Of a stretch of 64,000 nt of DNA, positions 105-61,092 are shown in pieces. Source of the DNA: Rhynchonema sp. JSB1_4 (lineage: Eukaryota > Nematoda > Chromadorea > Monhysterida > Xyalidae). Location: positions 62,001 to 126,000 of the forward strand of contig JASAMV010003498.1 of assembly GCA_030248065.1 (NCBI GenBank), read 5' to 3'. The notes beneath the pieces were generated by a model. The model ran no database searches, was not told the origin of the DNA, and was given only the letters and a program-made list of their open reading frames with translations. Each line of letters opens with the position of its first letter. The first letter of the stretch is position 1. A program made the position numbers and the translations under genes.

Positions 105-520
105 GGTGGAATTTTCGAAACGGTGTAAAGGTCAGTTGGGCGTAAAGGTCGGTGTAAAGTTCGGTCGAAAGCTCGGTCGGCGTAGCTCGGTGTAAACGTG
201 AAACATTGCCTATTATTAACGTAGAATGTTTCAAGTTTACACCGAGGTCTATCACACTGAGCTGTAGACCGAGCTTTCCGCCGACCTTCACACCCAACTG
301 ACCTTTACACCGTTTCGAAAATATCACCCAATGTCCGAAACGGTGTAAACGTCAGTTGAGCGTAAAGGTAGGTATAGCTCGGTGTAAACATGAAACATTC
401 CACGTTAGCAGCAGGAAATGATTCATGTTTACACACCGACGGAGATTTCGACCCAGTTTACTCCGACCTTCACACCCAACTGACGTTTACACCGTTTCGA
501 AAATTCCACCCGTTGTCGAC
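105..520. repeat. Two adjacent foldback (MITE-like) elements
   Basis: Two neighbouring palindromic units (about 105-330 and 333-517) share the end sequence CGAAACGGTGTAAA and its inverse TTTACACCGTTTCG. Each arm carries the variants 'GTCAGTTGGGCGTAAAGGTC' and 'GGTGTAAAC'. The loop of the first has the inverted pair TGAAACATT (199) and AATGTTTCA (236); the second has one copy (391). No coding frame survives across them. They look like non-autonomous DNA transposons of one family. Confidence 0.75.
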
Positions 521-739
521 GGAGTTATGTCATGTATGGGTACGTGTGTAATGACGCTACGACTAAATAAATGCGTGTGCCCTGTTTATAGTGACATTGA
601 CATGACTGAGACCAGCAACCATTTGCCCAGGTCACGAAAGTGAAGAATGTTTACTATAGTTGTAAAAGAGAGGTTAGCGGCAGGCAGGTGGCGTGTGTCG
701 TTCAAAAATATTCACTTGAAGCGGGCATGACGGTGTGCT

Positions 740-3700
740 TTCAGAAACAAGACAGTACCCAGTAATTTCGAGTCTTTGTCCGGCTGTATCACCATACCGT
801 AATCGACTTCACCAGAGGACTCGAACTTTTTCTTCGCCTCATCCGCGCGAGCGATGCGAGCATCCAGTCTGGCTGGATCTGAATTGATGGTTGTTTTTTG
901 ATCTCGTGTCAAACCTGGTGATCGGTCTTGGCTTCATCACATGACTGTTTGTAACAAGAATACTTTGAGATCTATTGACGCGCCACGGTAAGCTCAACTA
1001 ATCTGAACGTTGTTTATTCTACAAGATAAGATGTCCAGAAATGCTGAATGCAATATGAACACCACGCAATGTATGACTGATCCAATCCCATCACCAAAGA
1101 TTGATGCCCGAATGTTTTGAGTTGTTCAGGCATCATTTAAGTCAAAACTCATTCGAAATTCTTTAGGAGCACTCCCTCACCATTTCCATAAAGTCGCATG
1201 GCGTTTTCGCGACAAACGTAATTGCCACAAGTCGGGGCCAGTGCCTTGATGCGAGGGTCCTTCGCAGCTGTACCAATGATCACATTGGCGCCCTTCATAC
1301 AGGAAATGTTTGAATTCAAGTTTGCCTAAGAAACTTTTGGCATTCCATTTTTAAGCATAAATTGCAAACGCTCTCCTCCATTCATGAATCTTGAAAGATC
1401 AACCGGCAGTAGTTTATTAGGTACAGTACCTATACCTACCTGAGACCGCATCAACTTTGCGGGTATAAGCACATTACAACACGGAAAAAAGAATTTGTGT
1501 TCGTACCGAGTTTTTCGGTAGAGTTGCAGCACTAATTTCGACCAGCGTAAACTTGTTCCCCTGCCTAAGTTCAAAGTTGATGCAGCAGCAGCTGATGTGC
1601 ATCGCTCATCCTGTCTGGCTGAATTCTCAACCCGCACCTGACAAATTCCGATGACACCGATTTTGTCCTTGTCCACTTGCGGCAACGACTGCAAATAATC
1701 GATGCTGGCACTCATGTCTTGCATCTTGCGACTCAAACTCTCGAATTGACGTGGTTCACCATCGGATTCCCCGAGCGTGCGAGCGTCCCAGATCAGGGTC
1801 ACGAAACCGTGCTGTACATTTGGGTGCAGGGTGTTGCAAATATAGCTTCCCTGATACGGCCGTCTGGGTGCCTCGAGGATCAGAACAGTTGATACATATT
1901 TTATACACCGAACAACTAAGGCCGTCTTCACAATGAACCGTTTTCCCGTTTTCCCGGTTTCACGGTTGTCCGGTTTCCCGTTTTCCCGGTTTGCTAAACT
2001 TGTGTCTTCACAATGAAATCCGGTTTTCCGTTTTTCCGTTTTCCGTTTTCCCGGTTTCACGGTTCAGAATTTGTGTCTTCACAATGACACGTTTTCCCGG
2101 TTTCCCGTTTTCTCGGTTTTCTGCATAATGCGCAAGAACTTTTGGTCAGTAAAACTTGGTCCACATATTTATGACAATTTAGTACGGGCAACAGATTTAA
2201 AACAAAAATGTATAAACACGTTGTGGCATACGCACCCAATTCCGAATATAAAGAGCTAGGTTTGAGCAAAATCGTTTCACAATTGCGACAAGGGCAGACC
2301 AGGGTTGGGCAAAAAACGTTTTTTTCCAAAAAATCGTTTTTTTTAAAAAAAGCGTTTTTTTTTAAAAAAAAAACGTTTTTTTTTAAAACGCCCAGATGAC
2401 CAAAATATGCCCCCAAAAAAATTGGAAAACGCTCATGTTGTGAAGAAAACGTGGTTAAATGAAGTCATTCTATGTGTTCTGAGGCAAAATAAACAGGTTT
2501 CAACCCTTTTCTAGCGAGTTGCTAAGATCCCATATCAGACCCGCATCGTGGGACCAACTTTGGCCGGGGTCATCACTGAAAGTCAAACTCCGTATATCGA
2601 CGTATCTCGACAAAGTAAAAATTGGTCGAAAATTTTTTGAAAAAAATGGGACAAAAAATTGATTTTCCTTGATAATCAGGGTACTTTCCCTGAAAAATCA
2701 GGGAAAATCAAGGAAATTCAGGATTTAAAAAAAACGAAAAACGACCCAGGCGTTTTTTTTTAAAAAAAACGTCGTTTTTTTTTTAAGAAAAAACGCCGTC
2801 GTTTTTTTTTGCCCAACCCTGGGGCAGACATGAGCAAAATTGTTTCACAGATCCAAAACGCCTTCACTTTTCATACTACAATCTACAGGTACATACTAGT
2901 CGGGACCCGTGCCTGCGGCCCGGCTACAGCGCCGCGCCCGTGCCGTGCCGTTCCCCGAAGACCCGTTAGCATACCCAAAGCTACCCGTGAAAATTGACCC
3001 GTCCGCCCTTCCGAGGGAGGGGGCCACATACATACACGCATACGTCTTCGTGTTTTAGTAGTATAGGTGGTGAACAGACTATCCCCAACGCAAATTGTCA
3101 CGTTATCTGGCTCATCGTAAAAATATCACCTCGCTACTGCCCGTTTATGAACACAACTGGTGGGTGTCAACTATTCCTATATTCTCCAGTACAATCAAAT
3201 ATACATACTTACAAAAAATTTCGACAATTTTTCACATTGAGAACCGAAATTTTTGTGGTCCGGAATAAAAAAAGTAAATCTTAAAATTGTTTTAAAGATT
3301 CAAAAAAGTTAAAAAAAATTCGATAATAAAATTTTTTTAATCCAACCCTGGTGAAGACGGCTTATGCCTGGGCTTCCTGGGTCCTAAGTGTTTCCTGCCT
3401 TTTCTTGTTCGGGCTACCATCAGCAGAAGACACTGATCGAAAGCTTGATTGGGTCGAAGCATTCGTGTTTTGCACTCATTATCAGAGTATGATGGGCATG
3501 ACAACTGAATTGGCGGACGTCGCACTTTTCGAGGTTATGCATCGATTACTCATCTATTCAGTTAAGAATTAGGAGAATAAGGACCAGTGGCTTTCCCAAA
3601 AGACTTTGCCATGAGACTTTTTTCTTTTCTTCTTGGGCGCAAGCAAACATTTTTAACCCGTGCCAGTCGTGTTGCATATTGTATCGGTGACTGTTCCTTG

Positions 3701-3837: not shown

Positions 3838-3860
3838 TTTTTTTAATTTCAAATAATCAA

Positions 3861-8216: not shown

Positions 8217-8279
8217 TCTGTCGTCAACTGTTGGCCAGCTTTGATGTCCGGAAGTGAAAAATAAAGTAAAGGATATCAA

Positions 8280-15640: not shown

Positions 15641-16891
15641 TTTAAAGGGACAATTCCACTCAGATATACGGGGGTGATCCAAAACAAGCGTAAAAACTAT
15701 GTTGCAATACTGTTTTGCAAAAACTAAAAACCATTCAAAAAGTAAAAATATGTCCACTGATAATGTTAAGCACAACCTGAATTTTTGTGCAGGAATCAGG
15801 CACCAAGCTGAAATGTAAACCACGTGAGCTAGTATTTTCTCCTTCAACGTTGTACTTTAATATTTTTTCAGCTGAAAAAATATTTTTGTAATCGCTGTGC
15901 TTTACATAGGAGCATTGATTTTTTCATCTCGAAAGATTAAAAAATATTACAAAATGCTGGGTGCGCGCTTGGTACTTAAGGCGGACGCGCGTGGAGCGCT
16001 TTTTTCAGCTGAAAAAAGATTAAAAAATATTACACAACCTAGAGCGACGTTATCATTTTTTCGCATTTTATGCATGATTTTTAAACTTAAATTGATGTTT
16101 CAATTGCAAAGTGACTGGTGTAAAGTAAGTGATGAAACAACAGTGAGTGTCTCAAAAAAATTCGGACGAATGAATATGTGCAAGTTCTAGGAAATAACAT
16201 GATCTAAACTTGACCAGAAACAAAAGGGTCGCATGTCATGCACAAAAATCTTGGGTAGAAATCACTCTTTCCTGAATCGTGATCCAATTCGCCGTGATTT
16301 CGATCATAACATTCATAATATTTCAACGAGCATAACGTTATCATCATAAATAACACTCAAGAAATCGGCCAATCAAGTTTTTAAACCACTGGGACCACTC
16401 ACAAAACAGCAAAACTTGACCGTCAGATCGAATTTAGAACAACGTCGGACCACCACGTTGTTTTTGGTCAAGTTTAGATAGTCTTATTTCCCGGAATTTG
16501 CACATTCATTCGTCCGAATTTTTTTGGGACACCCAAAGTTGTTTCGTGACTTGCTTTATACCAGTCACTTTGCAATTGAAACACCAATTTAAGTTTAAAA
16601 TGAATGCATAAATACGAAAAAATGAAAAAGTCGCTCTCCGATTTGTAATCTTTTTAAATCTTTCTTCAGCTGAAAAAAGCGCTCCGCGCGCGTCCGTCTT
16701 AAGTACCAAGCGCGCACCCTGCATTTTGTAATATTTTTTAATCTTTCAATATGAAAAAATCAATGCTCCTATGCAAAGCACAGCGATTACAAAAATATTT
16801 TTTCAGCTGAAAAAATATTAAAGTACAACGTTGAAGGAGAAAATACTGTACTTTCTGATACCAACTTATTTGAGTGGAATTACCCCTTTAA
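15641..16891. mobile_element. 1.25-kb palindromic transposon with TTTAAAGG ends
   Basis: The outer ends are TTTAAAGGGACAATTCCACT and the inverse of TTAAAGGGGTAATTCCACTC. Further in, the arms share CTTCAACGTTGTACTTTAAT, TTTTTCAGCTGAAAAAAT, GGTACTTAAG and CGGACGCGCG over more than 300 bases per arm. A TTAA or TTA target duplication is likely. The interior includes an ATGTTTCA site at 16095. There is no transposase. Other elements with TTTAAAGG termini are at 23707-24800 and 32280-33360. Confidence 0.8.
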
Positions 16892-18265: not shown

Positions 18266-20903
18266 ATGCGTCTAGCAGGCTTAGGCTTATGGGCTGCGTG
18301 GTTTGTTCACGCCAGCATGGGAGGAGATCAGGTCTTAGCACAAAATATATCAGATGGCCCATGCTTTCAAATGCAATGCCAAAAACACCTCGATGTGTAG
18401 CCATTTGCTCGTGAGGGTTGGCGGCGTGTGATGTGCATTTACTTATCTGCATTGGGGAAAAAGCCGCAGGAGCAGACCTGCGTTCCATGTCAAATTTGTT
18501 TTAGATCCGATTTGGAGGGGGCGAGTGGTCAAAGCAAAAATTACTCCTTCTTGTATAATTTCACGTAAAAAACAAGCTGGGTTAACAATTACTCACCAGG
18601 TTCATCGTGTAAATATTCACCAACACTGTTGAACTTTTAAAAAACACTATCTGGTCTTTCGATTTTGATGATGCAAAGCTGGAAGCGCGGCTGCAACCCA
18701 GTCAAGTAATGTTCTGTTCAATATGGGTGGGCAATTACATACACCCTAATGTGCACACTGTTCATACAATTTGTACTGAACTTCGGTATCGCATGCAATG
18801 CGGTTTGCACAATCATTCAATGCGGATACCTTGCTAATAGATACTTTCTTTTAATATTCCTTGTTTGAATGCCATGACTTCGTTTCATAACCAGCGCGTA
18901 GCCAAGTATCGAGGGCGGTGCACATATAGGAAAAACATTGAATTTCCAAGGACTAAGATTGCATTCAGCGCTCGCATATGGCACAACCACATTGACTATT
19001 TCGCTATGGTTGCTGTATGAACGGACTCCAATGGTCACTTTCCGATCCCAATAGATTAGTTCTTCTTTGAAGTAAACGACGGGATCCAATTTGTGAGCTT
19101 CGTTATTCAAATACAAGCAGCCCAAAATAATACATAGGCAATACAGTTTGCACAATCAGTCAATGCGGATGCCTTTCTAATAATAACTTTATTCATACCG
19201 TGCTGGCATTGCTGTTGTTGCGTTCTCAATACTCGTGTATCGAGGGCGGTGCGATTTTCCAAGGTTCTAAGGACTAGGCACGATTGCATTCAGTACTTAC
19301 ATGGCACAACCACATTGACGATTTCGCTATGGAATTATTCTTCTAACTGTTGCTATATGAACAGACTTGAATGGTCACTTTCGGATCCCAATAGTTTAGT
19401 TCTTCTTTGAACTGAATGACGCGATCTAATTTATGAGCTTCCTCATTAATAAACACGCAGAATAGTACATAATGCAAGCAGTTTGCATAGTCTATCAATG
19501 CGGATACCATAGCACTGCTTTTGCTGCGTTCCCAATATGGAGGGCGGCGCGACGGAAAAAACACTCTGCCAAATTTGGAGGGTTGGAACAAGTTTATGTA
19601 ACTACAGATGTTTTTTCTTCCTGGAACAAAAGCACATTTTCCAACGTTTTTTGCTGCTAGTTTTAAATCTTTGGGTCTCCCTGAACCAGGGTTGGAAAAA
19701 AATTTTTTTTAAACAAGTTTTTTTTTAAAAAAGTCTGAGATTCGGGGAAATTTTGCCAAATTTGCCTAAAAAACGCGCAAAATTGGTGAAAAATGCAACT
19801 TTAGTGACTTGGTTTGCATCACTTATCAAGGGTGTTTACGTCATTTCGGTGCGATTCAACAGTCTGTGCTTGATATGGACCGATGATTGCTGCTCTGTGG
19901 TATCGGACACAACAGTTTGTGACCGAATAAGCAAGATTCACACATAAACCACACAGAATTGAGAATATAAGCGCAAGAAATACTTGTCGGGTATCTGAAT
20001 CGGTCGTATATATCCCAACCTGATGGGTCATGACATCGAAGTACCATGTAGGTACATGCGTACTGTGTCCCATGTATCACGGGAAGGTATAATAACATCA
20101 TTTGGGGTATGTTAAGTACCAAATACATGCCCCAAAGGTGATTTTGTGAAGAAAATTTTTCGACCCTTGAGAAAAAATGACAAAAAATAACCCACCAAAA
20201 GGCCATTTTTGGACGTTTTAGAACATTTTGTTCCCCCGAAAAATTTTTAAAAAAATTTTTTTCTTAAAAAAATTTTTATCAAATACCTTTTTCCTAAAGA
20301 AAAAAATTTAAAAAAAAATTTTTTTTTGCCCAACCCTGCCCTGAACCAAAAGGGATTTTTTAAATAATGACTTTTGAATAAAATGTATTTTTCCCACCGC
20401 TTTCGATGTAGTTGATGTTTCATTCTCTAGTACGTACATAAAGGTGATGACTTTGGTCTAAAATACTGAACAACAAGGCTCGTTATTCATTGAACCAGTG
20501 TACTTTTTATATGAATTTTCTGAAAGATTATTGTTCATACATTGAATTCCACTCTGGTCTCAATTGTGTCCGTTGCAGCGCCTTCCAACGTTTCGAGACG
20601 TGCTACTTCAGCAGTCTGGTTCGGCACTGCCGCATCAACGAATCGGAGTTCTGGCTGCCGCTGCAGGAGGCATCGACCGACGCGATGAGTGCTATGATCA
20701 GATCCATGTCTGAGACTGGTGACATGCCTGAAGCGTGCAACCAGTTGCCTGATTGGCCAAGACTGCTCAAACCCACCACTCAACCGGACGCAGACGCGCA
20801 CAAACAGACCGCTGTGGGTGGAGTGGGAAGGACTTGCATGTCGGCTTGGACAATTGTGGCGTATTGCTTTTCTGCTCGCACGTCTTCGATATTAGATTTC
20901 TGA
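18266..20903 (+). CDS. Cysteine-rich secreted protein, two exons, 151 residues
   Basis: Exon 1 is 18266-18396 and exon 2 is 20579-20903 (stop TGA); phase 2 joins exactly (GT|GTAG donor, GTTGCAG acceptor). The protein starts with a clear signal peptide (MRLAGLGLWAAWFVHASMG). It continues with an N-glycosylation site (NIS) and a Cys-containing domain with PCFQMQCQKHLDVAFQRFET and CYFSSLVRHCRI, then a linker. The C-terminus has MSAWTIVAYCFSARTSSILD, which is hydrophobic and could act as a GPI-type or membrane signal. I do not recognise the family. The first exon overlaps two TTAGGC hexamers, which encode the Leu-Gly of the signal peptide. The 2.2-kb intron holds a tandem duplication and a hAT-type MITE. 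The start could instead be 18218. Confidence 0.6.
18780..19560. repeat. Three imperfect tandem units of about 350 bases
   Basis: The phrase AATGCGGATACC/GCC recurs near 18819, 19161 and 19499. The phrase 'ATTTGTGAGCTTC' with its neighbours recurs near 19089 and 19431. On the minus strand the units keep related open frames (for example HKLDPVVYFKEELIYWDRKV and HKLDRVIQFKEELNYWDPKV). They are likely a decayed exon array or a short duplicated pseudogene inside the intron of the 18266-20903 gene. Confidence 0.6.
19687..20338. mobile_element. hAT-type MITE with perfect 8-bp target duplication
   Basis: The termini are CAGGGTTGG...CCCAACCCTG and the flanks are CCCTGAAC at 19679-19686 and 20339-20346, an exact 8-bp duplication. 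It is related at the ends to the element at 2300-2821. The interior is about 650 bp with no transposase frame. It sits inside the intron of the cysteine-rich secreted protein gene. Confidence 0.85.
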
Positions 20904-21268: not shown

Positions 21269-23406
21269 CTACAGGTATCGGCGGAAGAAGTGGCGCCAGT
21301 GTTGTCTGCGTCTGAGTTCGCCCTCGGTGCAGGCGCCCGTGCAGCCGTCCAGCACTGTAACAATGGGTTACGGTAATTATACCTGCCATGCGCAATATCT
21401 CGTGATTATTAGGAAACGTGTAAAACAACAATTCTTGGGATTCATGTGTGGATTGTACAGAAATGTGTTTTCTGATTGCCCGTTTCGCCCTGCTTTCACA
21501 AACGGACGGTGCATCCGATCAGCATCAGTGTGCTTGCAACAGATGGTCAAATGGTCTGCCGTTGATGTGTGCGTTTGAATTTATTTCAAACTGACTAAAA
21601 ATCTGAGAACCAACCTTTCTTCTGTATGGCTCCATCGGTAAACTTTACACTGCACGTCTTCAGTGCGTTGAAGTCATTGCATTTGGTGCACACAGTGCGA
21701 CACGCGGCTTGCATTTCGGTACGTTCCATATTCACTGACTCAGTGCCAGTCGCAAAATTGATTTGACTGTTCTCTTGGCTGAAGATGTGGATAAATTTCA
21801 TTTTAAGCAGTTTTTTCCATTATCTGCCACAGAGCAGTTGGCTTTTTTAACTGAAATGGATCGCAAACTTTGGCATGACCAGCCATAGTAAACTGAACCA
21901 GATAAACTGGCAATCTGCAAGTGACAAACTCAGTCATCGTGACCTGAAATCGAGGTGGTTGAAAACTGACAAGTGGACTCCACCGAGAAGCTGCTCCGTC
22001 GCAGTATACCTACGCCTCTAATTATTTGTCCCAAAGTGTAGAGCCATACATAGTAGGTCTCAGCCTGAGCTAATTCAATAAAATGTAAAAGACGAGCAAA
22101 ACTGCTCCAACCTAATGCAGTCAGTGACGGCTTGCTTTGCATCATCACACTCGTCGTTGTGTTTGCGACTGTGGTGGTGATGGCGGGCGTATATTGGCTG
22201 AAACATCACTGGTATCAATCATTATGATCAGCGCAGTATCAAACTTGATAATCAGATCCGATCTCGCGATCTGCCTTGGTCTCGTCACCTTTTTTGTTTT
22301 GCATTGCTGCCCCACTTTCGACTATAACGGGAGTGTAACATAGCCAGCATCATCATAACTGTTTTATGCTGGTCAATATCAGGGTCATCAATACCAACAC
22401 GAGTCACAAAATGGTCACGTGATCACGCCGAAACGGACCGATTACCATCACCACTTCTTAGACCGACTTAAGTCACTGAAACATCAGACAGCTGACCACG
22501 CGCGCGCTCGTGCATGCGAAGCTGGAGCACAACTGAGCCTGCTGGTGTATTGAAGCATACTGTACATGTATATACACAAGAATCAACTAACCACGGTTAC
22601 ACAGATCGCGATAATCACGGCACTGGAGATTCCGTGCATTTTGAAAACTGTTGAACGGTGTAGAGTTTATCGCACACTTTTAAAACGAAAATTGTGGCAG
22701 AAGTGACAATGAATACATATGTAGATATGGGTACAGCAGCGCTGTCAAGCAACTTAGACAAAAATTATTGCATCAACTGCTTTTTATTTTATAACTTTCA
22801 AATTCTGAAACGACACAAATTGACTTGAACGCTATATCAAAACGGGTTTTGTTAATTTTCTGTACACACATTCTTTTTAACCAATACTCCTTAGTTTTCC
22901 GCACCAAATCGAATGTCAATTACCTAATTTCAAGTTTACTTCCTGGGTGCCCATTCTGTACATCACCTGGTAGTGTATATGGTTGAGAAAACTGACATTT
23001 TGATCACTGTGGATGAGAACAGATTGCGTGACCACACCCTCTGCGGTTTGCGTATATTTGTGCAAAATGTCAAGCTCATGTTCGGGAGTGGTCGTCAAGA
23101 AGCTTTTACGCTGAAGAAAATGTCATTTATAAGCGTGGGTAAGAAGTGGTTGACATGACGGTTCATCCATGGTCTACAAAGTCCATATGATGAGATGCAT
23201 TATGAAACAAGCCAAACTTTTATTTTATTATGTCTAAATTTGACGCCATCAGCTGTACTTAGTTTATAATGCAGAAATGCCGTAAACGGGTGTTGCACTT
23301 TCGTCAAATCATTCGCAAACAAACTGAGCTGCAGAAAACCAAACACTTTCTCGTCATAAGTATGTGGAAAAAGTATGCCATGCGTCATCTTGTACAGTTT
23401 TGACAT
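21269..23406 (-). CDS. Cysteine-rich protein, five exons, 213 residues or more
   Basis: Exons (minus): 23406-23245, 23110-22967, 22197-22112, 21778-21615 and 21354-21269 (stop TAG). All four junctions are phase-consistent. Recognisable coding stretches are THGILFPHTYDEKVFGFLQL, TTTPEHELDILHKYTQTAEG, RKHNDECDDAKQAVTDC, EMQAACRTVCTKCNDF and LDGCTGACTEGELRRRQHW. The C-terminal half has a dense Cys pattern, with a basic tail. The layout vaguely recalls the second half of zona-pellucida/cuticlin-type extracellular proteins, but I cannot confirm that. A splice acceptor (TTTTCCACAG) lies just upstream of the first ATG, so a 5' exon with a signal peptide is likely. The acceptor of exon 3 is GATGTTTCAG, one of the overrepresented motif sites. 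Confidence 0.6.
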
Positions 23407-37682: not shown

Positions 37683-38410
37683 CTAACCCGATTGCGGTTC
37701 CTCCAATGGTTGCATTGATGGTGGCAGGTCCTTGTTCTTATCGGCCCGTGGATCGTAGCTGTGGCCGGATGAACGTTTGGCGTTGGTCGATGAGCCCGCC
37801 TGACTGTTGGAACGCAGCAGATGCACCGGGGTGTTAGGGTGCTGAAACATCACAATGGTGCAGTGCGTGCGGGTGGCTGAACTTCCTCAGACCAGCTTCA
37901 TCATCAGTTCTGGTTGGTGGTACGCACCAGTGACGGTAATGGCACTATTTTAGTTACATACAGCATAGGGATGCAACATACAGATAGTTGCAACCTTGGA
38001 TCACCCAGAGGAAATCGGAAACGAAATGAATAGTCACACTGCGATTGTACCGACCGTTCTCTCTTCGTCGACTGACCGTTGACGGTAGAGACCGGACGCG
38101 AACCAGCCTGAAACATCATTGTTTGATCAATCCGAATGCAGGTTCGAGGTTGGAGTTAAACGATTTGCAACTCAGTTCAATCAATGGGTGGGTTTAATGT
38201 ACATGCGCTCCCCGTTATTATCAGTTCAATCATCTGACGTACTTTTGCGATCCATGATTGTGCGTGGTCGGTGAAAAACACCGGGTTTTGACCGATTGAT
38301 TGATTGAAATGTCGTTGTGTCGGACAAAAATACAGGTTGAATACTGACAGGTAAGGCTGGGAATTTACTGAAAAGAGGACAGATAACAAATTTAGCTGGA
38401 AAGAATTACC
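37683..38410 (-). CDS. Membrane protein of unknown family, 3' part
   Basis: Exons (minus), all phase-consistent: one ending at 38410 with hydrophobic CLVFSVLYPLIGFCAVQFVR and SASLICTFL (5' boundary not fixed, about 38500), then 38343-38243, 38107-38051 and 37841-37683 (stop TAG). The hydrophobic part can form one or two membrane helices. It is followed by FNLYFCPTQRHFNQSIG and then a Ser/Asn/Gln-rich hydrophilic tail with SGHSYDPRADKNKDLPPSMQ. The acceptors of both last exons are ATGATGTTTCAG and GTGATGTTTCAG. I do not recognise the protein; a small tetraspan protein is possible. A 5' exon is missing. Confidence 0.55.
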
Positions 38411-39503: not shown

Positions 39504-42500
39504 ATGGCCCCCGGTCTTGTGTCCGGTTGCATCAAGGAAGTGACGCCCACTTTGGGAAAAATCGACTCGCCGGAAATTTCGGGAAGTGAAATCACGTTTG
39601 GGTGCAATGATGATTCGCTGAAGGTTAGTGGGAACTTTTGGTCGGGATCATGCATGGCCGCCCTGCCCTCTTTTTGTGACAAGATCATCCACGAGCGCAG
39701 ACATGACATTTACGGCAAACTCGGCCTCAAACTGTCAAGGTCAAGGATTTATTTCACAATATGGAGGGTCACAATAAAGAGGTATGATGTGCGCATGTGA
39801 AACATCACGTTCCTTCAGGTGCCCAACCTCTGCGATCGTTACATGGCGTACTACCCAGTGGTATTCCTTCGGGAACAACGTCCCGATGGCATTGGCGCTC
39901 ATCACGTTTGTCCGCTGAAGGAGGTGATCGACGGAAATGGTTTGTTGTTACAGTTGTATTAAAGGGTGCGTGGCATTAAAGGGTGTGCTGAACAAGGCAC
40001 TTTTCAGCTTCAAAGTTGACTGTGAAGGATATGAGCTCATGGCATGCTATACATATGTACCTAATTTGATCGGAAACCGCTATTTTCGATCAGTACAAAC
40101 ATTATTCACCATACAGATTGAAGTGGTTAACGTCAGATTGAGGAGAAGAATATCATTTCAGGGTTTAACCGTATAGAGAGCCACGTCACGATATGAAAGG
40201 GAGCACTGTTGTACAATGCAGTTTCCCTGGTCGATCTTGAAAACTGTGGTCTGTTTTTAGGCAAAGTCGCCGACGTCTATCCCGGAGGGGGCAAAATTTG
40301 CACGGTGATCAACCGGCAAGAGATGAGCATATCGTTTCCGGCGAGCGCCGCCGTCAAATCCAAGGCTGAAAAACAGAAATTAACGTCGCTTTTCAAAGTC
40401 GGCACGGTGTAAGTTGCATAAAAGGTCATTCATCAGGTGTCAAGTATAGTATTTCCTTTTTATGCGAGTCAAAGGAAGCCGTGTCAACGTTGTAAGCCAA
40501 CTCCTAGCTGAGGTCGAAATCCGCGACTCTCCTTGAAAATTCGAAGAAAGAGAAATCACACGTGACATGCACGCCGCCAACGTCACCAGAAGCCTGAAAC
40601 ATTGTTTCGTGCGCCGGAATCTTACGTGGCGTGTGACGTCTGATTTCTCTTTCTTTGCATTTTCAAGGTGAATCGCATATTTTCGACCTTAGCTAGGAGC
40701 AACTGGATCGCACGTTGAGTGGATGTTTGGACCAATATAATACGGAAAGACTATACATACAACAGCACCTCGGCTCGAAGAAGCACCGACCGTCAACGAT
40801 AGGTCACAAAATGCGACACAAAACGAGTCAATCAATGAAGCATCAAAAGTCCGACTACGAATATAGCTATTCCGATTATTGAGCACCTCATTCTAGTGTC
40901 ACATACCGTGCGGTGCCAACGCCGACCGGTTACAAAGCCTTGCAAGTCATATATCACAAGCGACAGCCACAATCCACAGCACAGCAACACAACGGAGAGG
41001 CAACGTCGAGCGAAATGACGAGATTTCGGCAAAACACAACGCCAAGTGAGAGTTTTGATTGGAATTTTTTCAAAGACATTCTGTCGAACTATACATAGAT
41101 GCCAATAACGCCATTTCAGCAGCGTTCGTGGGCATGGTGCAAGTTGTGAGCAGCAGTCCCACGCCCGTCATCGAGTCATCCCACTCCGCACAGGAGTTGC
41201 CCGATGAACGTCCCCATTTCTCACAAGACCGCGGTGCACGTGAGGGCAAAGTGACCAATGTGCAGAACGACTTTATAGTCGTTGACAGCAAAACGGCTGA
41301 TTTTGGCATGATTTACGTTCCCGTGTCCGTTAATCATCCAAGAGTTAGTGCTTTGATAACTTGTTATAACATCATTGACACGATGCTGTGCTGGTTTTGG
41401 TGCGAATGCCACGCATTAATTTCAGTGTAACAACATGCGCCTGCATTACAAACTGCATGACACCTGCTTCTATCTGTTGTCATCCGATCATGCCACCAAG
41501 GGATACAAGTGGGGCGCGAATTTTGCCTGCAATGATAACGAGATGCGATATGATAGAGGTAAAAAATCATTAACGGTGAAAAATCAAACCAAGTCCTTCG
41601 GTTTTTTCAGTATGGTTCATGTGCGTTGTTCTGGAACAATATGACATGAACTATCCATTGTGATCTGTTCACCTTGAACTTCAGGCTACATGTAGCTGCA
41701 TCAGGGGATTTTCATCTTTTCGACTTTACACTCTAACCAACTGTTTCAGGCGTTGTGAGCGCAGTAGGTGTGATCCATGCGACCGTCAAATCTACCAAGT
41801 ATGGTGTCGTCAAAGTGCCATCTGTTCGTCTGACCAAAGCGTGGAGCAAATCCGCCAAACAATTGACTGAACTTCTCAGAGTCGGAGATCTGTATGTTCT
41901 GCACATTGTTTTTGAAGTCTGTCATTTTCGTCACGACCGTTCTCACAGCAGCTTACCATTTCTTCATGGTGACAGGAACGCTGGCCGTCATTTTTGGTCA
42001 CTACAAATGCAAAGAATTCTCATTTCTCTATTTAGACCAGCCATATTTGTGTAAAATGGAGGTTACGGCACCCTTGGGAAACGAAACAGCATTGAAAGAT
42101 ATGAATTTTATAGAGTGGTTCACTATAACGAGGGTCACTATGAGAAGCACACGCTGTAATCCCTCTCATTTGACGTTGATGGAAACATCAGTCAGGTTGA
42201 CATTTTCAGTGTCAAATTCCGAGGCGTTGTCGATGAAAATACGGGCAAATTCAAACTTCTCAATATCGACTTTGAGGACCCAGGATTGATGTCGCATCGC
42301 AGCTCTCCCCTGTCTCCGTCGAGCGCATCAACAAATTCCCCTGATAACACAGGGTCAATACAGTCATTGTCCCTGTCTGAGCCTGTCAAGCCTAAGCCCA
42401 CACGGTCAGTGACCAGTAGTGGGTCGTCAGGCTACGCGTCAATGTCCAGCCAGAACACAACGTCAAGCGGCCTTTCAAGACAACCTTTCTTTGAAGGATT

Positions 42501-45187: not shown

Positions 45188-48040
45188 TCACGGTCTCCTT
45201 GTCGGTTCAGGGCAATCAATCACAATCTCAATTCCATCCGGATAAATCATTCTCACATCCCCACCCAATCGCGAATGGCCAGCGAATACTTTGCGAATGA
45301 CGCGAGTGAACAGCTGGTCGCTAGTTCGCACTACAATTCGCTCCAAATGGTTCAAATGCTCAGCGCGACGCATCAGGTCAGCACAGTGTGTATCCTCGAC
45401 ATACGTGGTTGACAAACTGCGAATGGTGCACGACACCAGTTGAAGACTGCGCAGTTGGGGCATGTCCAGTAGTTGACGGAATAAGGTCACGGCGTTCTGC
45501 TCGTTCGCAAAACACAGGTCTTGCAAACGCACCTGGAAAGAACGAACCAAGATCAGTCTTGAGTGCGTTGTGTCACCCATGGCTCATCAGCCATCAGGAT
45601 TGCGACTGGGAGAGCATGGAAGCTGGTTGTGAATTCATGAGCAGTCGAGCATCACCCAGCACAAGTATGAACACCTGGCTGGTATAAAGTAATGACACGT
45701 GTAACGTAACCTGAAGCAATTTTGATGTCCGATCAATTCCGACGCCGAACAACCATAAAGAACGACACGCACAATCCTGATACCGCCTATCTTATGGCAT
45801 GCTGGCAAATGACATAGACATGAGCCTGACTTCAGCCAAAACCTGAATCAAGGAATCTGACCCACCTCTTCCAGATTGTCAGCGGCCTGTCTGAGGAATC
45901 CCATCAATAATCCAAAGTCACTGTCATTCAACGTCACCCAGCTTCGATTACCGAGTTGAAGCCGTTTCAAATTGGTGAATGGTCGCGTGCAACAGCGATT
46001 AACCAACAACAAACGGAATAAATAGCCGGAATTGCAAAGTAGCGAGAAGTCCGTGAGACGGGTCAACACGGACTCTGGTGGCTGCATGACAGCACGTTTC
46101 ACGTTGTCGTTTGAAACGTAGCTGAAATGAAAACATGGATTACCACAACAGAAGCCAGCCGATCAGTATATTTAATTTTGTTGTTATGATTGGTGTTGAT
46201 CCCTATCTTGGCAATTAAATTTACGATGAGAATTTTCTCCCAACATACGTACAGGGTTTTACACTGCACTTCTATTCACGGATCATGCGCGTGCATGAGT
46301 TGGGCAGCGTCTTGCCCGTTTTGACCTGGTCTCACGGACTGGCGATGCACCAGGTCATCGTCACTGCGAACGCACCAAATGCATGGTTTGGCGCACCAAA
46401 CCCTAAGGCTTTTGGTGGGGAAATGTCCCACTGCTCCAAAATCAAATTTCGATTTTGCGATAGAATGCACAGATTGGCTCGCGGTTTGGCCTAAGCCTAA
46501 TAAAGAGCCTGAGCCTAAGCCAAAGCCTAAGCCTGAGATAAAGGAAAGTCAAATTTCAGGCTGTCTTAGGATTTCAAAGTTCCTCCACCAAAAGTCTTGG
46601 GGTTTTCCCAAAAGGCGCACCAGATGGTCACGTAATTCCTTCAAAATAATTGAAAGCTGGTTTGTCCTGTGAGTGCTGATTTCTTTCACGTGGTCAGGCA
46701 GAATAAAGGCCTAACTATACTTCGTTCTTGCGCGTAACACGAAACAAATTTTCCCACGCTGGTTGGTTCTCACGAGCGCTCCAACCAATCAGCGCACGAG
46801 AATTCGCTTCGTGTGGCGCGAGCGAACGAAGTGCCTTAAGCGTACACCTTGTTATCATGCCCATCGGAAAACCGATGGAGAAAAACGCCTTTCAGAAAAT
46901 GAGAATAAAACAAAAAACACCAATAAACGCACAGCGGCGTCCTATCCAGGCACAACTGTTTGAGTGACGTGAATCGACTCAACACCGTGAATGCATTGGC
47001 GCTGAGTTTAGGATGTGCGTGCTGCTGGGCCACGTTCAGACAATGAAGATGTTTATAGAGGCTGTTCAATTTTAATAAATTGGTAGAATCCAGATAAATC
47101 GGGCAACCGCGCAGACTCAGCGATTTCAGACGCGGATATCTGGAATATCGTGATGAGGTTGCGAATGGGGTACTTTCATGAGCCGCATTATTATACTGTA
47201 GTATTAGGTCTGATTTTAAATGTAGCATGTATACCTATGTATGTACTTCTGGAACCAAAAGCCGGTGTCAAAGTTGGTTATCTGATCTAATCTGTTTTGG
47301 GTCACGCGACCGCCTGTTCGGAATTAAGAACATTCCGAGATCATCTGACGTCATTACAACCACGTTTCCACAGATGAAAAATGTTCCAGAAACGTTCGAA
47401 ACCCTAAAATGGCAGGTCCACCGCGTGACCCAGGCAAACCCGATCCTGTTCGATTCTTTTACCTATTTTGACACTGATCAATATGCTTATCCGGTGATGA
47501 CGTGTGGTCCAATTTCAAAAGCAATCACAATCTTGGTTTAATTCGCATTCCTAACCGTGACGATAAATGAACTCACCGACAAAGACAGCTATCGACGAAT
47601 TTGGAAAAGCCGATCGGTTCGGTCAATCCGTACTCGTGCTGCACATCCAGATGCGATCGGTGTTTCTGACATTGACGCACGATTTGCATCAATCGACTCG
47701 ATGTCTGTTCGATGCGAAGTTGCTCGATGCCACGACAGTGAGAGATGATGATGCACAACACCTGTAAAGGTCGGTTGGCTGATGTTTCACACGTTATTGT
47801 GATTCAAGTAAGGCAGACGTTCCGAGGAGAGGTGAAAGAGCCGATTTTTTTTGATCTGATAATTTATTACGAGCTCCAGAAGCGATTTCTAACCTCATTC
47901 GGCAGCAAATTGAACGCGATTTTCCCATCCTGCGACCAATCCTGATCGACTGGAGGTAAATTCTTCTTTTTGATCGCAACTGATTTTGTTGTCCTGTTTA
48001 CATCCGAGTGCACTTTGGCCACGTGTGGGTCAAGTTTCAT
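45188..48040 (-). CDS. F-box and leucine-rich-repeat protein, five exons, 379 residues
   Basis: A likely substrate receptor of an SCF (Skp1-cullin-F-box) ubiquitin ligase. Exons (minus): 48040-47894, 47761-47577, 47139-46933, 46121-45866 and 45532-45188 (stop TGA); 1140 bases, every phase consistent. A basic N-terminus leads into an F-box-like core, FNLLPNEVLCIIISHCRGIE. LRR-type strands follow: YPRLKSLSLRGCPIYLDSTN, HLHCLNVAQQHA, FTSLKQLCLDRTPL, FTNLKRLQLGNRSW and MPQLRSLQLVSCTIRSL. The last repeat is followed by a short C-terminal cap with DGIEIVIDCPEP. The F-box is short and split by intron 1, so that domain call is less certain than the LRR call. Intron 3 contains the TTAGGC-bearing dispersed repeat at 46370-46620. 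ATGTTTCA motif sites at 47782 (intron 1) and 48048 (just upstream of the start) flank the first exon. Confidence 0.83.
46370..46620. repeat. Dispersed repeat with AAGCCT hexamers (copy 1)
   Basis: The order CTTTTGGTGGGGAAATG, TCCAAAATCAAATTTCGAT, GATTGGCTCGCGGTTTGGCC, then (GCCTAA/GAGCCT)n and AGTCTTGGGGTTTTCCCAAA is repeated at 62685-62890. The hexamer block is a degenerate TTAGGC array. The family is unknown. Confidence 0.75.
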
Positions 48041-48239
48041 TGTGCTGATGTTTCAATAAGAAACTTCTCGGTATTTGCTGAAACGTGCCCATGTTTTTGT
48101 CATGCGGCCGTCTTTTCTGGTGATAAAGTGGCAAAAAATGCTGCTGAAGAGGTCTAAGATAAAAAAAATGCAAAAAACGACAAGACAGAAAAAATGCAAA
48201 AATGACATCATGAATGTCCGCACAAGACCACTCATCAGG

Positions 48240-48484
48240 TATAGTAAATTTCTAAATTCGCTGCCGCACAGTAAAATACGCCCCATAGTTAATGTCAAGT
48301 TCGAAACCCGAACGCTAACCACGCGCGGTTCTGAAACATTGCGCACAGTTGCCAGGCTGGCTGACAAGCTGTACTTGTGTCCGTGTTGAAAAAATGTTTC
48401 AAAAGTTGATCTTCGGGTTTAGAACTTGACATTAAGTATGAGGCGTATTTTACTGTGCGGCAGCGAATTTAGAAATTTACTATA
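48240..48484. mobile_element. TATAGT-type MITE (copy 2)
   Basis: The same family as 33496-33733: ends TATAGTAAATTTCTAAATTC and the inverse, then GCTGCCGCACAGTAAAATAC and GCCCCATAGTTAATGTCAAG. The inverted motif pair is TGAAACATT (48332) and AATGTTTCA (48394). Confidence 0.88.
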
Positions 48485-51600: not shown

Positions 51601-54600
51601 ATGAGCAAGAAATCTCATCATCATCACAGCCCTGCCAAACCAAACAAGTCCAAATCGAACGACCCGAAAGCGATCGAGAGCAACACAAAAATCAGCCCGG
51701 CCAAATCAAAACCAGCGCAAACACCGCAAAAGAATGAGGTTTGTCGCTTTGGGGTCCAATGATTATCGGGGTCGGATCGGGTGTTTCTTTTCAGGTATAT
51801 ATGTGATCCTGATGCTGGTACCTACAGTATGTACAATATACCTATACGAGCGTGCACGCGGACTTTTGCCTATACTTTGCATTGCTTCGCACGCACGCGC
51901 GTGCACGCGACTTCAACTTTCAGCCTAGAATTGCACCCGGTACTGTACCTAAGCCTACGTATTTTCACGTGCGGTTCACCACGGGTTTGTGAAAAAATAA
52001 GAAACTATGAAAAACGATAGTTTACGTGTATAATACTACCAATGCCAACATTGACTTGCGCGTGCCGGCCGCCTGCCGGTCGCCGAGATCACACCGTACT
52101 GGGTATGGGCAAGCAGAAGCAGCCAGGCGATCGGCATTGACGGCGGTCACAAGTGTGCTTGGCTGTATCTTCGAGCTTTTTCGAGCTTTTTTGGCGTTTC
52201 TCGTCCGGCAAGCAAATAAAAAGCCGTTTACTGTTATGAAAGTGTTCGTTTATGAGTGCTGGTGAACATGCACGGCAATAGGAGGTAAACACTTGTGTTT
52301 TAGATTGACTTCCCTTTCTTGAAATCAGTTCATAACGTTCCGGTCAGCCCTCCAAAATCAAAATTTGTAGAAAACGTGATTATTAGGATCGACAAAACAA
52401 AGTCAATAGCACATCACCACGCAAACAAACAGACGAGCGGATGCAAATACCAAGTGCTTCCAATGTTACACTTAGCTTTGGTGATACTACCCCTAACAGC
52501 CAATGGTTTCATCCATTTCGTCATATGGCCTCATGAAGAGCTGTGCACCAGGGCATCGTCAGTGCGACTCTAACATCAAATTCTAAAATTGCTGAAATCA
52601 ATACATGGCAGGTGTACGCCATGCCCCCTATCGCTCCCGACCAGCACAAGGAGTACCAAGAAGTGATGAAGAAATGCAATGAATTGACCAAAGACATCAA
52701 TCAGAACACGCGGGCGTTGCGCACATTGGAGGATGATGTCAAACGGGAGACAGCAACGAAAAGCACCTCGAATCCACAGGTTTGCAAACGCATGTGCATC
52801 TTTGTTTGTGTGGTTTTTCGAACAAAATATAGTCTGCGTCTTCTTTATGGTCACCGGATCGAGACCAGCTATTTTCTGTCACTATGTGGAATATTCATCA
52901 GAATGCTGGCTGACTACGTACAGTATACATATGTACATAGGTGCGTATACATACCTATACAGATTGGAAGTAAGCCAAAATATGGTTCATAAATTTCCAC
53001 AACAGGGTTTCATTGGGAGTCAATATACAAAAAAGATACAGTCCAGCGTAGTATTATACAATGCATGGGTTGAGTCTCGCGGGTCAATCCATTCCAAGTC
53101 TTTGTGCCGAATTTTAAAATGGCTTACTGATGTTTCAGTAGTAAGAGCAACAGAGAAACATCATCGTTATCTAATACATACTGTACCAGGTCGCGCACGC
53201 CAAAAAGGCGATTGAAACGTTGACGCAGCGAATCGCACACGACAAACGCAAACAGCAACGACTGCACGACCAGGCTGATGCAATATCGAAATCGTGGTCA
53301 ACGCCGCAGAAGGCAGTAGCGAACAACGGTGCGGCCGGCCTGGGACAAGGACCCAGTGTGGTCAAGACGCCAGCAAAGACGAGACTGAAAAGGTGGGCGA
53401 ATATCACAGTCTATGCTCTTTATAGGGACACGATAGTGTGCAATCCACCCTCTTCATAGTGGCATGATTGGGACCCGCCATTTTTGGTCGCCATGGTGTA
53501 TACATATGTATGTATCTGCACTGGTATGAGAGCCACGAGGTTAAACTTCAGGATGTTGAATCAACATCAAATTATTGTTCGCTCCAAAAAAGTTACAGTA
53601 TTGTATTTATGGAAGGTCACTCGTTTCAAACTGGTCAAATAGTTCCAGTCCGATCACCGCTCGTGTATCATCACCGTCGAATGTCGACGTCGATGCGAAT
53701 CGATCACCACCTCCGTATCCATTGATTCCGAACCGATCGGTGATCAGCGAACCAGTGAATGTGCGATTGATGACATTGTTGGACGTGCCACGACAGCAGC
53801 GAACCGTTGAGCAACATTTAGAGATGATGGAGGTACACACGCAATCAATGAATCATTTGTCCACTCATTCAATCAATCAATCACAGGAAGTTGCTAACGA
53901 AATCACACTGCTTGGTCGCGCCGATGAGACAGTGAAGATAAAAACCAACGAACTGCACAAAATGCTTAAAACTGAAATCGGTCATTCGATTTTCAATGCG
54001 ATCTCTTTCGAACAACTGCCATTTACTGTATATGTATTTGCAGCGCACAATCACGAACAACAAAAGACCGACCATCGACGACTAGACCAATTGTGGAAGG
54101 ACTTTGATGAGAGCGACAAACACTGGGACGATCTGGTGGACAGCGTTGAGAAACAGGTGCGGCCTGATGCGCACGGCAGCAATATTCTGAAGATGATTGT
54201 GAAAATTTAGAAAATCTTAATGTGTATTTGCAGCTGCAACGTCGCTGGACGCCTGTGGACGAGGAAATGAAGCTTCTGCAGGAGGCTGCTCGAAGCAACA
54301 AGGACGAGATCGAACACGTCAAACAGGAACTGCAACGAATTGAGGCTGTGCGTTTGCCTTGATAGTTCAGGGCAATAGATTGTAAGAAATTGATGTCAAT
54401 ACCGATTAGTTCGTGATTTCAGCTGGCGCTACGTTTCAACTACATGTCGCTGCGTGACATTTACCTGACGATTATGAATTGGCTGGTGGAGGGCGTAAAA
54501 CAAATCTGGCATTACGTTGGTTGGTGGACAAGGGCTTTTTCAGTTTTCCTCCTTGTGACCCATTAACACAAAATGAATCGGCTGCAGGTTCCCTCTGCTA

Positions 54601-54682
54601 CAAATATTCCGGCACGTACGTCAGCGACAGCGACGATGCAACCGAAAGCACTTCGATTGAGTCTATTATTTCACGAGGATGA
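51601..54682 (+). CDS. Coiled-coil protein of unknown function, nine exons, 401 residues
   Basis: Exons: 51601-51738, 52612-52779, 53190-53392, 53649-53832, 53887-53980, 54044-54156, 54234-54347, 54423-54519 and 54588-54682 (stop TGA); 1206 bases, all phases consistent. The N-terminus is Lys/Ser/Pro-rich and disordered, with a HHHH run. It is followed by charged helices typical of coiled coils: QEVMKKCNELTKDINQNTRA, AKKAIETLTQRIAHDKRKQ, ETVKIKTNELHKMLKTE, DHRRLDQLWKDFDESDKHWD and EEMKLLQEAARSNKDEIEHV. It ends with a semi-hydrophobic helix (RDIYLTIMNWLVEGVKQIWH) and an acidic Ser-rich tail. No family is recognised. Two introns are about 54-63 bp. The half foldback element at 51848-51950 lies in intron 1. 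Confidence 0.8.
51848..51950. repeat. GC-rich foldback element (copy 3, half)
   Basis: Only the right arm remains: GGACTTTTGCCTATACTTTG, GCGCGTGCACGCGACTTCAA, then CAGCCTAGAATTGCACCCGG and TACTGTACC. It is the same family as 3861-4056. Confidence 0.75.
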
Positions 54683-55292
54683 AACATCACCGAAATGCGA
54701 CTTGACAGTGAATAGTATGATATGTAATTATGTTACTGCTTAGAGCAGGTTTATGAATACGGTAATTTTATTCGTTAAAAATGTAAGTACATACCTATAG
54801 TAAGATACGTACTGTATGTAGAAGATTGTGAATGTTCTCAGATGTGATGTTTCAAATGTGACTGGGTTCGGGACCACTCTAAAATTACTCTCAGACACCC
54901 TTTGACGTTGCTGCGAGGCGCTGTACTGTGACAGACAGGAGCTCGTTGTGTGCAGGGCAAATAAATAAACAACAGAGTTTGGATTTGGCATCTTGAGTTT
55001 ATTCCATATGCCGCCACACAAATAACCACGGCAAATAACAATATAAACAAGTATAATAATACCAACAAATAATGGTTTAATATGCAATAATGCAAACTCA
55101 CAGCATCACAAAACAAGACTTGCTTGCAGATCTAATTTCATGTCGAATCTTTCAAACAAACTCCATGGGAGGAATACTCAGGCGTTGAACAACACGAATA
55201 GTATGCACGTCTCCAAAACTATTTATATCAACGGAAATTATGTGCATAATAACGGCAGCTGACTAAATGCAATCCCGCAGCAAGCATACTAA

Positions 55293-55618: not shown

Positions 55619-57296
55619 CTGCAAATATGCACATACATAGACTCATGAAACATCACGTGTTTGTGTCCCGAAATGGTGCCCGAATCTGCGCTCACAAATC
55701 CTTCCAGCATGAAAATGTACGTATTATACATGTAACTTTTTTCAACAGATACAGTGAAGCAAAATGTTCAGTTGGTATTGGTCACACAATGACTATATAA
55801 GAATTCATCAAATCAATCCTGATTTTCACGTTCAGTCACTCTTAACCACTGTGCTATTTGTGATTCTCACAAAACATTTTCAGCTGAAAATAATCTAGCA
55901 GATCAACCACGTTGCCGCAGGTCTGAAACATTCTCTTTACCACATGCTTTGTGTGCGATCACGCAACGTAACGTCATTGCCCCGTCACTTTCCCTCTTTA
56001 CGATTCAGGAAAAAATTTGACCAATTCTTATAAAGTCATTGTGCGACCAATATCACACCGCGCTGAATGATGCAAAACGGACAATTTCTTGAACGTTGTG
56101 AACAGCATCCGTGACTTACCTGCCAAAATCCACAGGACTGTTAGTGCCATCTCCAATCACACCCAATCTGTGGAGCACAACCACAGCTGAACGTTGACCA
56201 CAGGATAAAATTTACAGAATAGATAGGGTCGGTGAAATTTGGTCGAATCAATAAAAAGATGTCGTGACACTGAAAGGCGAGCTCTTCAACCGCTTCTTTT
56301 CAGGGCGCAATGTATGTAACAATTTTCTCCCATTGAATTTTCTAAGGACACTTTTCAAGTCATATCATAGCAATGTTTACAAGAAGCGACAGATAAGTGG
56401 GTACACCGATAAGTGTTTGTGTATGCCCAACTTTCGTAAAACAGATAAAAGTAGCGCAGCCGTCCGCCTGTGGCTGAATACAGTCAAGATTCGTTATACA
56501 GTGGCTATATTTTCGGTAAACCTTACAAGCATATCCACCCTGTATAACGAATTTATCCATAGCGAACCCAGCACTTAAGGAAATGCACAGCAAGATTTTG
56601 AAGCTTGCTTCGTTCATCTTGAGGTCGTTTCAGTCAAGTTTACGTGTGTTTATGTGCACAACGCATAATGATATTCTTTGAGGTTATTTTCGCGCGTATA
56701 CCCTGTGCATTGGAAGGGTATCCATTGCAGAGCACGAGCACGAATGAAAATTTGACTCAGTGACGTTTTCGCTGTTCAAGCTGTGTGGTCAGAAAATATG
56801 CTAAAAATCGAATTATATTTCCATTCATTTGGAACAACAAAAATTTCTATGCTACGCATGCCGAATAGTGTTTTACGAATCAGTGAAATACTGGAAACTT
56901 TCGGGACACGCCAAAAAGTATGCATAACCCGAATTTGCTCCCATAGTGGATATGTATGCCTATAACAAATCGTGACTGTGGAACCCTTTATCTCGTTGTT
57001 GCGCAAGCGTATCCCAGAATATGTTTGGGCCGGTTTGCAGTTTAGCACGGAGGCCAGCTCTCGTCATTACAGGCCGCTTATCACCCAGTGTGGTGAGAAA
57101 GGTTGGGTATGGGTCCATTTCAGCAGTGTTTGCGGTTTACGCAATGCGATGTCCAGTTAATGGGTAAGGTGCACTTGAGTTCATTCACCGCAAAGCACAC
57201 AAAAGTTGAATGAGAACGAAATTCTTTGTATTCAATACCTAAAAGAAGTCGTTTTTGTTCTTACAGCTTGTGGCGTTTTAAATATTGCCTGTGCAG

Positions 57297-58427: not shown

Positions 58428-58479
58428 CTGAATAAACCAGATTTCGGTCAATAATTTAGGATCGAAAAAACAAGTACCG

Positions 58480-59520: not shown

Positions 59521-60416
59521 AGGGTTAGAGGTCGGGGGGGTACCCGACACCCGACAGCCGACACCCGACATCTGGAAGTACCCGACACCCGACATCTCAG
59601 AAAAAAAGCCGACACCCGACAGTTGCAAAAAACCCGACACCCGACATCTAGTTTTTGGAAAAAACCCGACACCCGACACCTGTTTTTGGACCAAAAACAG
59701 GCAAATTTTTGCTCCTTCGTACTATTAGTGCAATTTTTTGGATCAAGTGACCGAATTCAAGTATTTTCACACGAAATAAACACCAAAATGTCACGTTCTG
59801 CGTCATCGGAAACATTCGGTTCGAAGAAAATTTTCTCTCAAAATTCTTCTCTCAGCAAAACTGATGTTTTGAACCGTAAGTGTCGGGTCCCAAAAAACCC
59901 GACACCCGACATCTGGGGGTACCCGACACCCGACACCTACACTTTTTTGGCACCCGACACCCGACATCTCTCTACCCATAGTTACCAATCACCAAAAAAG
60001 CCCAAAGCAAACCCACAAAAAAAAAAAAACCCGCCCCCCCCACCCCCCAAAAAAACGAAAACATCAACCCGGCGGACCCCCCCCGGGGGGCCCCCCGGGG
60101 GGGGGGAAGGGGGGAAACAAAGAAACTAAACCCCACACCAAACCAACCCACCCCCCACCCACAATACAAGCAACTGCGCCCCGGCCGCCCACCCGCCCCC
60201 CCCCCCCCACCCCCACACAACCACACCAGACAGACACAAGAACCCACCCAAACACAAACAACCCGCACCCCCCCACCAATCACAACAACCAAACCCCAAA
60301 ACAAACACCACACCTCCACAAACACCAAACAAAAACACCACACACAACCAAAAAACAAACCAAAACACCCAACCCAAACACCAAACACAACCCCCAAAAC
60401 ACCCCCCTCTAACCCT
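59521..60416. mobile_element. G/C-rich transposon with 10-bp target duplication (element 1)
   Basis: The ends AGGGTTAGAG and CTCTAACCCT are exact inverses. The flanks AATGTCAACT (59511-59520) and AATGTCAACT (60417-60426) are an identical 10-bp duplication, as left by Mutator-like (MULE) elements. The left 440 bases contain ACCCGACACCCGACA repeats; the right 430 bases are almost purely C and A on this strand. There is no transposase frame. Confidence 0.85.
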
Positions 60417-60639
60417 AATGTCAACTACGAAAAAATGGAGCAGTAATCATTTCCGCCCTTCGCATCGCAGTGGGCGCCTGTTATTATGGATGTGTATGAC
60501 AGAAGTTTCTGGCGCGTAACAAACAACGCGTGGAGCTGGAGCACAATGCAAAACACTTCAAACTTGACCAATTCAACAAAAGATTTGATGCAAAATCCCG
60601 AAATTTCCGCGCTACGCGCGATGACTACCATTCTCAACT

Positions 60640-61092
60640 AGGGTTAGAGAGATGTCGGGTGGGTGTCGGGTACCAAAAAGCGTAGATGTCGGGTGTCGGG
60701 TTTTTTTAGACCCGACACCCGACAGCCGACACCCGACACTTACGGTTCAAAACATCAGTTTTACCGAGAAAAGAATTTTGAGAGAAAATTTTCTTCGGAC
60801 CAAATGTTTCAGAAGACGCAGAATGTGACACTTTGGTGTTTATTTCGTATAAAAATACTTGAATTCAGTAACCTGAGCCAAAAAATTGCACTAATGATGC
60901 AAATGAGCAAAAATTTGCCTGTTTTTGTTCCAGAAACAGGTGTCGGGTGTCGGTTTTTTTCAAAAACTAGATGTCGGGTGTCGGGTTTTTTTTGCAACTG
61001 TCGGGTGTCGGCTATTTTTCTCAGATGTCGGGTGTCGGGTACTTCCAGATGTCGGGTGTCGGCTGTCGGGTACCCCCCCGACATCTAACCCT
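60640..61092. mobile_element. G/C-rich transposon with 10-bp target duplication (element 2)
   Basis: The ends are AGGGTTAGAG...ATCTAACCCT; the flanks ATTCTCAACT at 60630-60639 and 61093-61102 are identical. The interior GTGTCGGGTGTCGGGT repeats are the inverse of those in 59521-60416, and both share a unique middle (TCAGAAGACGCAGAATGT and its relative near 59795). It is the same family inserted in the opposite orientation. Confidence 0.88.

Follow-up and report, generated by a model that had tools for sequence, protein, structure and literature searches.

A highly repeated ten-base word with a probable relation to small nuclear RNA promoters in the genome of Rhynchonema sp. JSB1_4

In clade V nematodes, Caenorhabditis among them, type I PIWI-interacting RNA (piRNA) genes have an upstream element known as the Ruby motif, CTGTTTCA. 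In the sections of the literature cited here, this motif is derived from a small nuclear RNA (snRNA) promoter element (PMC6436959), and the type I loci of C. elegans are described as CTGTTTCA combined with YRNT (PMC6317315). Within the same sections, Piwi outside clade V was found only in plectids (PMC6436959), and PRG-1-like Piwi and the upstream motifs are given as largely absent outside clade V (PMC6468775). Here we report the ten-base word TGATGTTTCA, which contains the octamer ATGTTTCA, in a stretch of 64,000 nucleotides (the window; contig JASAMV010003498.1, positions 62,001 to 126,000 of the forward strand, assembly GCA_030248065.1) and across the assembly to which it belongs.

The ten-base word has TGTTTCA in common with the Ruby motif. 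Like Ruby, it appears to be a GTTTC-containing half element derived from the proximal sequence element (PSE) of snRNA promoters, is present in very many copies and occurs in a genome with a PIWI protein. Its genome-wide spread is like that of the Ruby motif in Pristionchus, as far as the latter is described in the cited parts of PMC6436959 and PMC6317315. Unlike Ruby, it has the prefix TGAT in place of CT, shows no bulk trace of YRNT or of an initiator, and lies in a genome without a match to the SL1 spliced leader. Plectus sambesii and P. murrayi, in which Piwi is present, use a bipartite piRNA/SNAP complex (SNAPc) motif that is also a GTTTC-containing snRNA element; in the cited part of PMC6436959 its extra half lies 5' of GTTTC, whereas the second half found here, GAATGACT, lies 3' of GTTTC and is not found at the dispersed sites. 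With the snRNA PSE, the SNAPc site, TGATGTTTCA has in common the octamer, the flank preference and the orientation; unlike the PSE, the dispersed sites lack GAATGACT. In its abundance and probable origin, the word is akin to the Ruby motif.

A highly iterated genomic word is also known from cyanobacteria, namely HIP1. TGATGTTTCA is like HIP1 in being a short exact word that lies far over expectation and is spread regardless of open frames, and unlike it in being eukaryotic, non-palindromic and tied to a known promoter element.

Abundance of the ten-base word

The window contains 40 exact ATGTTTCA/TGAAACAT sites on both strands. A first-pass annotation of the same letters had arrived at this total and at 39 of the 40 positions (the site it placed at 236 is at 226). 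Its tally of preceding bases (A 20, G 16, C 4, T 0) is borne out by the site prefixes, and the approximately 15 sites that it saw extended to TGATGTTTCA are exactly 15 of the 40. The random expectation of about 2 octamers had been set too low, and the excess of 15-20-fold accordingly too high: under Markov models of order 1-3, a window should hold 6.1-7.1 octamers, over which the observed number is an approximately 6-fold excess, and models of orders 4 and 5, both of which partly contain the octamer itself, expect 8.1 and 13.7. Once corrected in this way, the octamer observation stands.

When split by prefix and sequence similarity, the 40 octamers fall into 15 copies of TGATGTTTCA, 18 further sites within repeat families and 7 further sites that are unique. 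The 25 octamers without the TG prefix thus belong for the most part to repeat families (18 of 25), and the 7 unique ones are about what chance would provide. The real unit is the 10-mer TGATGTTTCA and not every ATGTTTCA. It does not form the dense local cluster that had been proposed, as the window has 15 sites and the genome averages 11.8 per 64 kb (approximately 1.3-fold).

In the 203,913,205-base assembly, TGATGTTTCA occurs at 37,556 sites and the reversed-word control at 345, a ratio of 109-fold. Sites with up to one mismatch number 92,371 (control 15,893), and the mean one-base variant has approximately 1,830 sites (control approximately 520). The word is sharply defined: a 264-kb sample contains 34 exact sites, whereas the 30 one-base variants have 57 sites in total and no single variant has more than 9. 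Chance and base composition were ruled out as the source of the excess by the Markov models and the reversed word.

Among 122 non-redundant sites, clear flank preferences were found for T at -8, G/T at -6, C at -5, T at -4, G at -2, C/G at -1 and C at +10. Deviations at -14, +19, +30, +77 and +108 are weaker (chi2 9.8-13.1) and about what testing some 200 positions should yield. No shared sequence of note extends beyond approximately -8 to +10 in 110-122 sites from many contigs. A 3' splice site was considered and ruled out, the base after the word being C at 48, G at 27, T at 28 and A at 19 of the 122 sites.

Relation to small nuclear RNA promoters

The sequence upstream of the Rfam matches to U1 (n = 10) and U2 (n = 9) was read. 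ATGTTTCA lies at -42/-43 in seven of the ten U1 loci (L021, L022, L023, L025, L026, L027 and L029), and L030 has ATGTTTTT at the octamer position. At the remaining U1 loci, L024 (contig C5667) and L028 (contig C1907), the element is displaced by approximately 275 bases from the U1 start, apparently due to an insertion, and the U1 copy that follows is probably silent. The inserted bases are related to a repeat at position 55924 of the window. The U2 start was located in seven of the nine loci, among which L036 has the exact octamer and L037 ATGTTTTA, both at -45, while the element of the other five, at -46, reads A(T/C)GTGACA. The tie to the nematode piRNA upstream element that the first-pass annotation had drawn from the shared letters therefore goes beyond a look-alike, because the octamer is the core of the U1 promoter and recurs, exactly or nearly so, in U2.

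The common snRNA element is ATGTTTCA-N5-GAATGACT, with the octamer as the 5' half of the PSE; the full form was seen at U1 and at the U2 locus L036. A flank matrix for positions -8 to -1 was built from 110 dispersed sites, excluding the snRNA loci and one repeat family. It gave 11 non-redundant snRNA promoter flanks a mean score of 0.93 compared with a background of -0.69 (p = 0.0002, 5,000 resamplings); the L030 row was mis-registered in this test, which works against the positive result. Based on the shared octamer, the flank preference and the sharp genome-wide excess, TGATGTTTCA is probably a PSE-related half element of the PSE type.

With up to two mismatches, ATGTTTCA-N5-GAATGACT has 1,396 sites genome-wide (control 106) and ATGTTTCA-N6-GAATGACT has 436 (control 77). 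Among the 100 matches listed for each spacing, all N5 matches and a single N6 match are exact, which indicates that the N5 spacing is real. Exact N5 sites number at least 100 genome-wide (e.g., on contigs C540, C1816, C2270, C4523 and C4922), and their middle is mostly CGCGA (52 examined). Among the 100 exact matches listed, 95 have no U1, U2 or above-cut-off U6 match within 400 bases, and 43 of the 100 share contigs (18 contigs). These sites may be a family of SNAPc-type RNA genes, possibly spliced leaders.

It has to be considered whether the piRNA genes of this genome are instead the approximately 1,000 full bipartite sites, as in plectids, with the TGATGTTTCA half sites being mostly silent relatives or something other. 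The surplus of N5 over N6 (960 sites), the distance of most listed exact sites from U1, U2 and U6, their sharing of contigs, and the 3,082 bipartite sites given for Plectus murrayi in the cited part of PMC6436959 are consistent with such an arrangement. It leaves the 37,556 exact 10-mers unexplained, however, and RNA genes of the SNAPc type, spliced leaders or others, could equally lie behind the full sites; we consider it improbable.

Possible roles of the dispersed sites

In the reading that we tentatively favour, TGATGTTTCA would descend from the 5' half of the snRNA PSE, to which the SNAP complex binds, or would be recognised in the manner of that half. The dispersed sites would recruit SNAPc and RNA polymerase II, and the very short capped RNAs made from them would be used by PIWI. 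The result would be dispersed piRNA genes akin to the Ruby-motif genes, with TGAT in place of Ruby's CT, and the word may thus stand at the starts of small genome-defence RNAs in their thousands. That the sites are dispersed piRNA-type promoters in this full sense is a real possibility, although we hold it to be somewhat short of likely.

The genome contains 54 exon stretches that match PF02171. A PIWI-clade consensus query, which had Piwi structures as its best PDB matches, identified three top loci on contigs C3368, C1663 and C4595, with two exons each (57-58% and then 59-60% identity); the other 13 matches listed have 38-49% identity. Judged by identity to this consensus, the genome encodes exons of PIWI-clade Argonautes. 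An Argonaute-family gene is also located at C2124:134617-136407 (L007/L008), approximately 8.6 kb past the end of the window, and a similar one at C4344:6026-7644.

The SL1 leader has no site in the genome at up to three mismatches, and the Rfam SL1 family gave no match among the 50 scored of 52,251 candidates, in a search for which no positive control was registered. An UNC-89-like PH domain match is a weak hint to the lineage, as is an Rfam match to the Caenorhabditis small nucleolar RNA ceN53 at L007:6517-6588 (60 bits, cut-off 50). Our guess from these letters is that the source animal is a nematode or a near relative. The more specific proposal, in which the animal has Piwi, stands outside the SL1-using nematodes and employs the PSE 5' half TGATGTTTCA at approximately 37,500 dispersed sites as the promoter of single-unit piRNA genes, appears unlikely.

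Transcription starts at 35-45 bases downstream, as first suggested, have left no sequence trace in 110-122 sites. Pyrimidine-purine (YR) steps and YRNT gave no significant peak at offsets 12-117 of 110 sites. For YR, the highest sum over any 7 bases was 219 (p = 0.35), and the snRNA-like window 42-48 had a YR sum of 191 compared with a null of 199.5 +/- 7.7. The simulated power of the YR test at an snRNA-like distance is 0.82-0.94 if all sites initiate, so that the null result disfavours a version in which all sites start RNAs at a strict initiator. If half of the sites initiate, the power is 0.30-0.46, and initiation at a minority of sites is not disfavoured by the test. Since the initiator test gave no signal, TGATGTTTCA is not classed here with the Ruby-type promoters.

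Several results, including this null test, weigh against the favoured reading. The GAATGACT half is not enriched at the dispersed TGATGTTTCA sites (115 sites; spacings 2-8). The U1 elements mostly have TT before ATGTTTCA, whereas the dispersed sites need TG, and the 264-kb sample contains TTATGTTTCA twice compared with the 34 occurrences of TGATGTTTCA. With respect to open reading frames, TGATGTTTCA is neither enriched nor depleted (32 sites), and it is the lack of depletion that counts here; for the first-pass annotation's placing of most sites in introns and intergenic DNA, this count is an indirect test. When copies chosen without regard to the motif are aligned, the exact 10-mer is lost in all four stretches at 81-93% identity and kept in three near-identical copies (97.6-99.2%), namely the window pair 32398/33233 (97.6%) and two sites common to L024 and L028 (99%). 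Because it is kept only in near-identical copies, no purifying selection is seen in the aligned copies. Finally, the sites are unevenly distributed among 19 contigs, with contigs without a listed site not included (chi2 44.6, 18 degrees of freedom, p = 5e-4). This unevenness rests on contig C7, with 16 sites against an expectation of 5.8; when C7 and near-duplicate sites are removed, p is 0.27, which weakens a minor support and leaves the odds given here as they are. Across 26 stretches of 10 kb, the unevenness has p = 0.023.

A genome-wide binding word without promoter function, recognised by SNAPC4 or a factor of like specificity and serving chromosome organisation, pairing or chromatin domains, would be in line with a number of these results. 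The resemblance to the PSE would then be real, and no RNA would start at the sites. The missing start signal at a fixed distance, the wanting second half of the PSE, the restriction of the preferences mainly to -8 to +10, the indifference to open frames and the surplus on C7 all argue for it, whereas the flank preference common to true snRNA promoters, the PIWI exons and the direct precedent described in the cited part of PMC6436959 argue against it. We regard such a role as plausible, if on balance doubtful; it ranks close behind piRNA promoters.

If the genome has 20,000-40,000 genes, the count of TGATGTTTCA would also fit 1-2 sites per gene, as might be expected if the word were an element common to protein-coding genes, acting in their promoters, splicing or mRNAs. 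This explanation is very improbable, considering that the base after the word is preferentially C, where a 3' splice site would have G, that no initiator stands at a fixed distance, and that none of the 34 10-mers of the sample falls in C17:10001-50000 (L010-L013), a region of 40 kb with an unc-89-like giant muscle gene. Anecdotally, the absence of TGATGTTTCA from this region would suit an association with germline genes.

Window sites, repeats and implications

Among the 15 TGATGTTTCA sites of the window, 12 have no repeat copy, meaning that none was found in the window and the sampled sequence compared. On the plus strand, these are 20413..20422, 47780..47789 (whose left flank matches the extended consensus), 48046..48055, 53128..53137 and 54845..54854; on the minus strand, they are 22199..22208, 22477..22486, 37843..37852, 38109..38118, 39798..39807, 54680..54689 and 55646..55655. 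The three sites in repeats are 16093..16102 (plus strand), in a local repeat whose paralog at approximately 16.5-16.7 kb reads TGGTGTTTCA, and 32398..32407 (plus strand) and 33233..33242 (minus strand), which belong to one repeat family also present at L079, L080 and L114. Pairs of TGATGTTTCA on the same strand exactly 266 bases apart occur at 37843/38109 and 47780/48046 of the window and at C24:5547/5813; the sequence between the members looks unrelated, and the spacing may be chance.

Several repeat families of the window bear ATGTTTCA, mostly preceded by A, in inverted pairs whose spacing recurs, among them those at 12810-12870 and 48332-48401. Outside the 10-mer set, three copies of AATGTTTCA at 199, 226 and 391 (199..398) belong to one repeat family and include an inverted pair 27 bases apart. 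An inverted AATGTTTCA pair at 33574..33641 is part of the repeat family common to 48332-48401, and inverted-repeat arms at 35444..35581 contain GAATGTTTCA in each arm. Another inverted AATGTTTCA pair at 36953..37063, with its members 103 bases apart, has a copy of equal spacing at L006:9668. In the 264-kb sample, the spacing of inverted octamer pairs recurs, with 27 bases at four places, 53 at two and 103 at two.

Transposon or repeat families were also weighed as the origin of the octamer excess. They account for 18 of the 40 octamers of the window, several of them in inverted pairs, and include three of the 15 10-mers; the other 12 10-mers have no repeat copy, and 110-122 sites show no notable sharing beyond approximately -8 to +10. 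A single repeat family, which the first-pass annotation had named among the findings that would undo its observation, is ruled out as the source of the 10-mer by the unshared flanks and the 12 sites without a copy, while repeats do contribute the 18 octamers. The repeat explanation is refuted for the 10-mer and holds for part of the octamer count; as the cause of the excess, it is extremely improbable.

The region from 59542 to 61062 of the window consists of tandem repeats with ACCCGAC units. Also frequent in the 264-kb sample are ACCCAATACC words and the palindromic 12-mer TTTAGGCCTAAA (28 two-strand counts, corresponding to 14 places).

That an exact ten-base word exceeds its reversed control approximately 100-fold across the 204 Mb of an animal genome demands a cause. 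The identity with the genome's own snRNA promoter core makes this cause testable, with unannotated short RNA genes by the thousand on the one side and a large number of SNAPc-like binding sites of some other role on the other. A further lineage would bear on the age of the piRNA route because Piwi and the upstream motifs are reported, in the sections cited, mainly from clade V and plectids. If the more specific proposal of piRNA promoters in a Piwi-bearing animal other than the SL1-using nematodes is true, snRNA-type transcription of piRNAs would be older than the known cases in clade V and plectids, and its promoters would go back to another half of the element than theirs.

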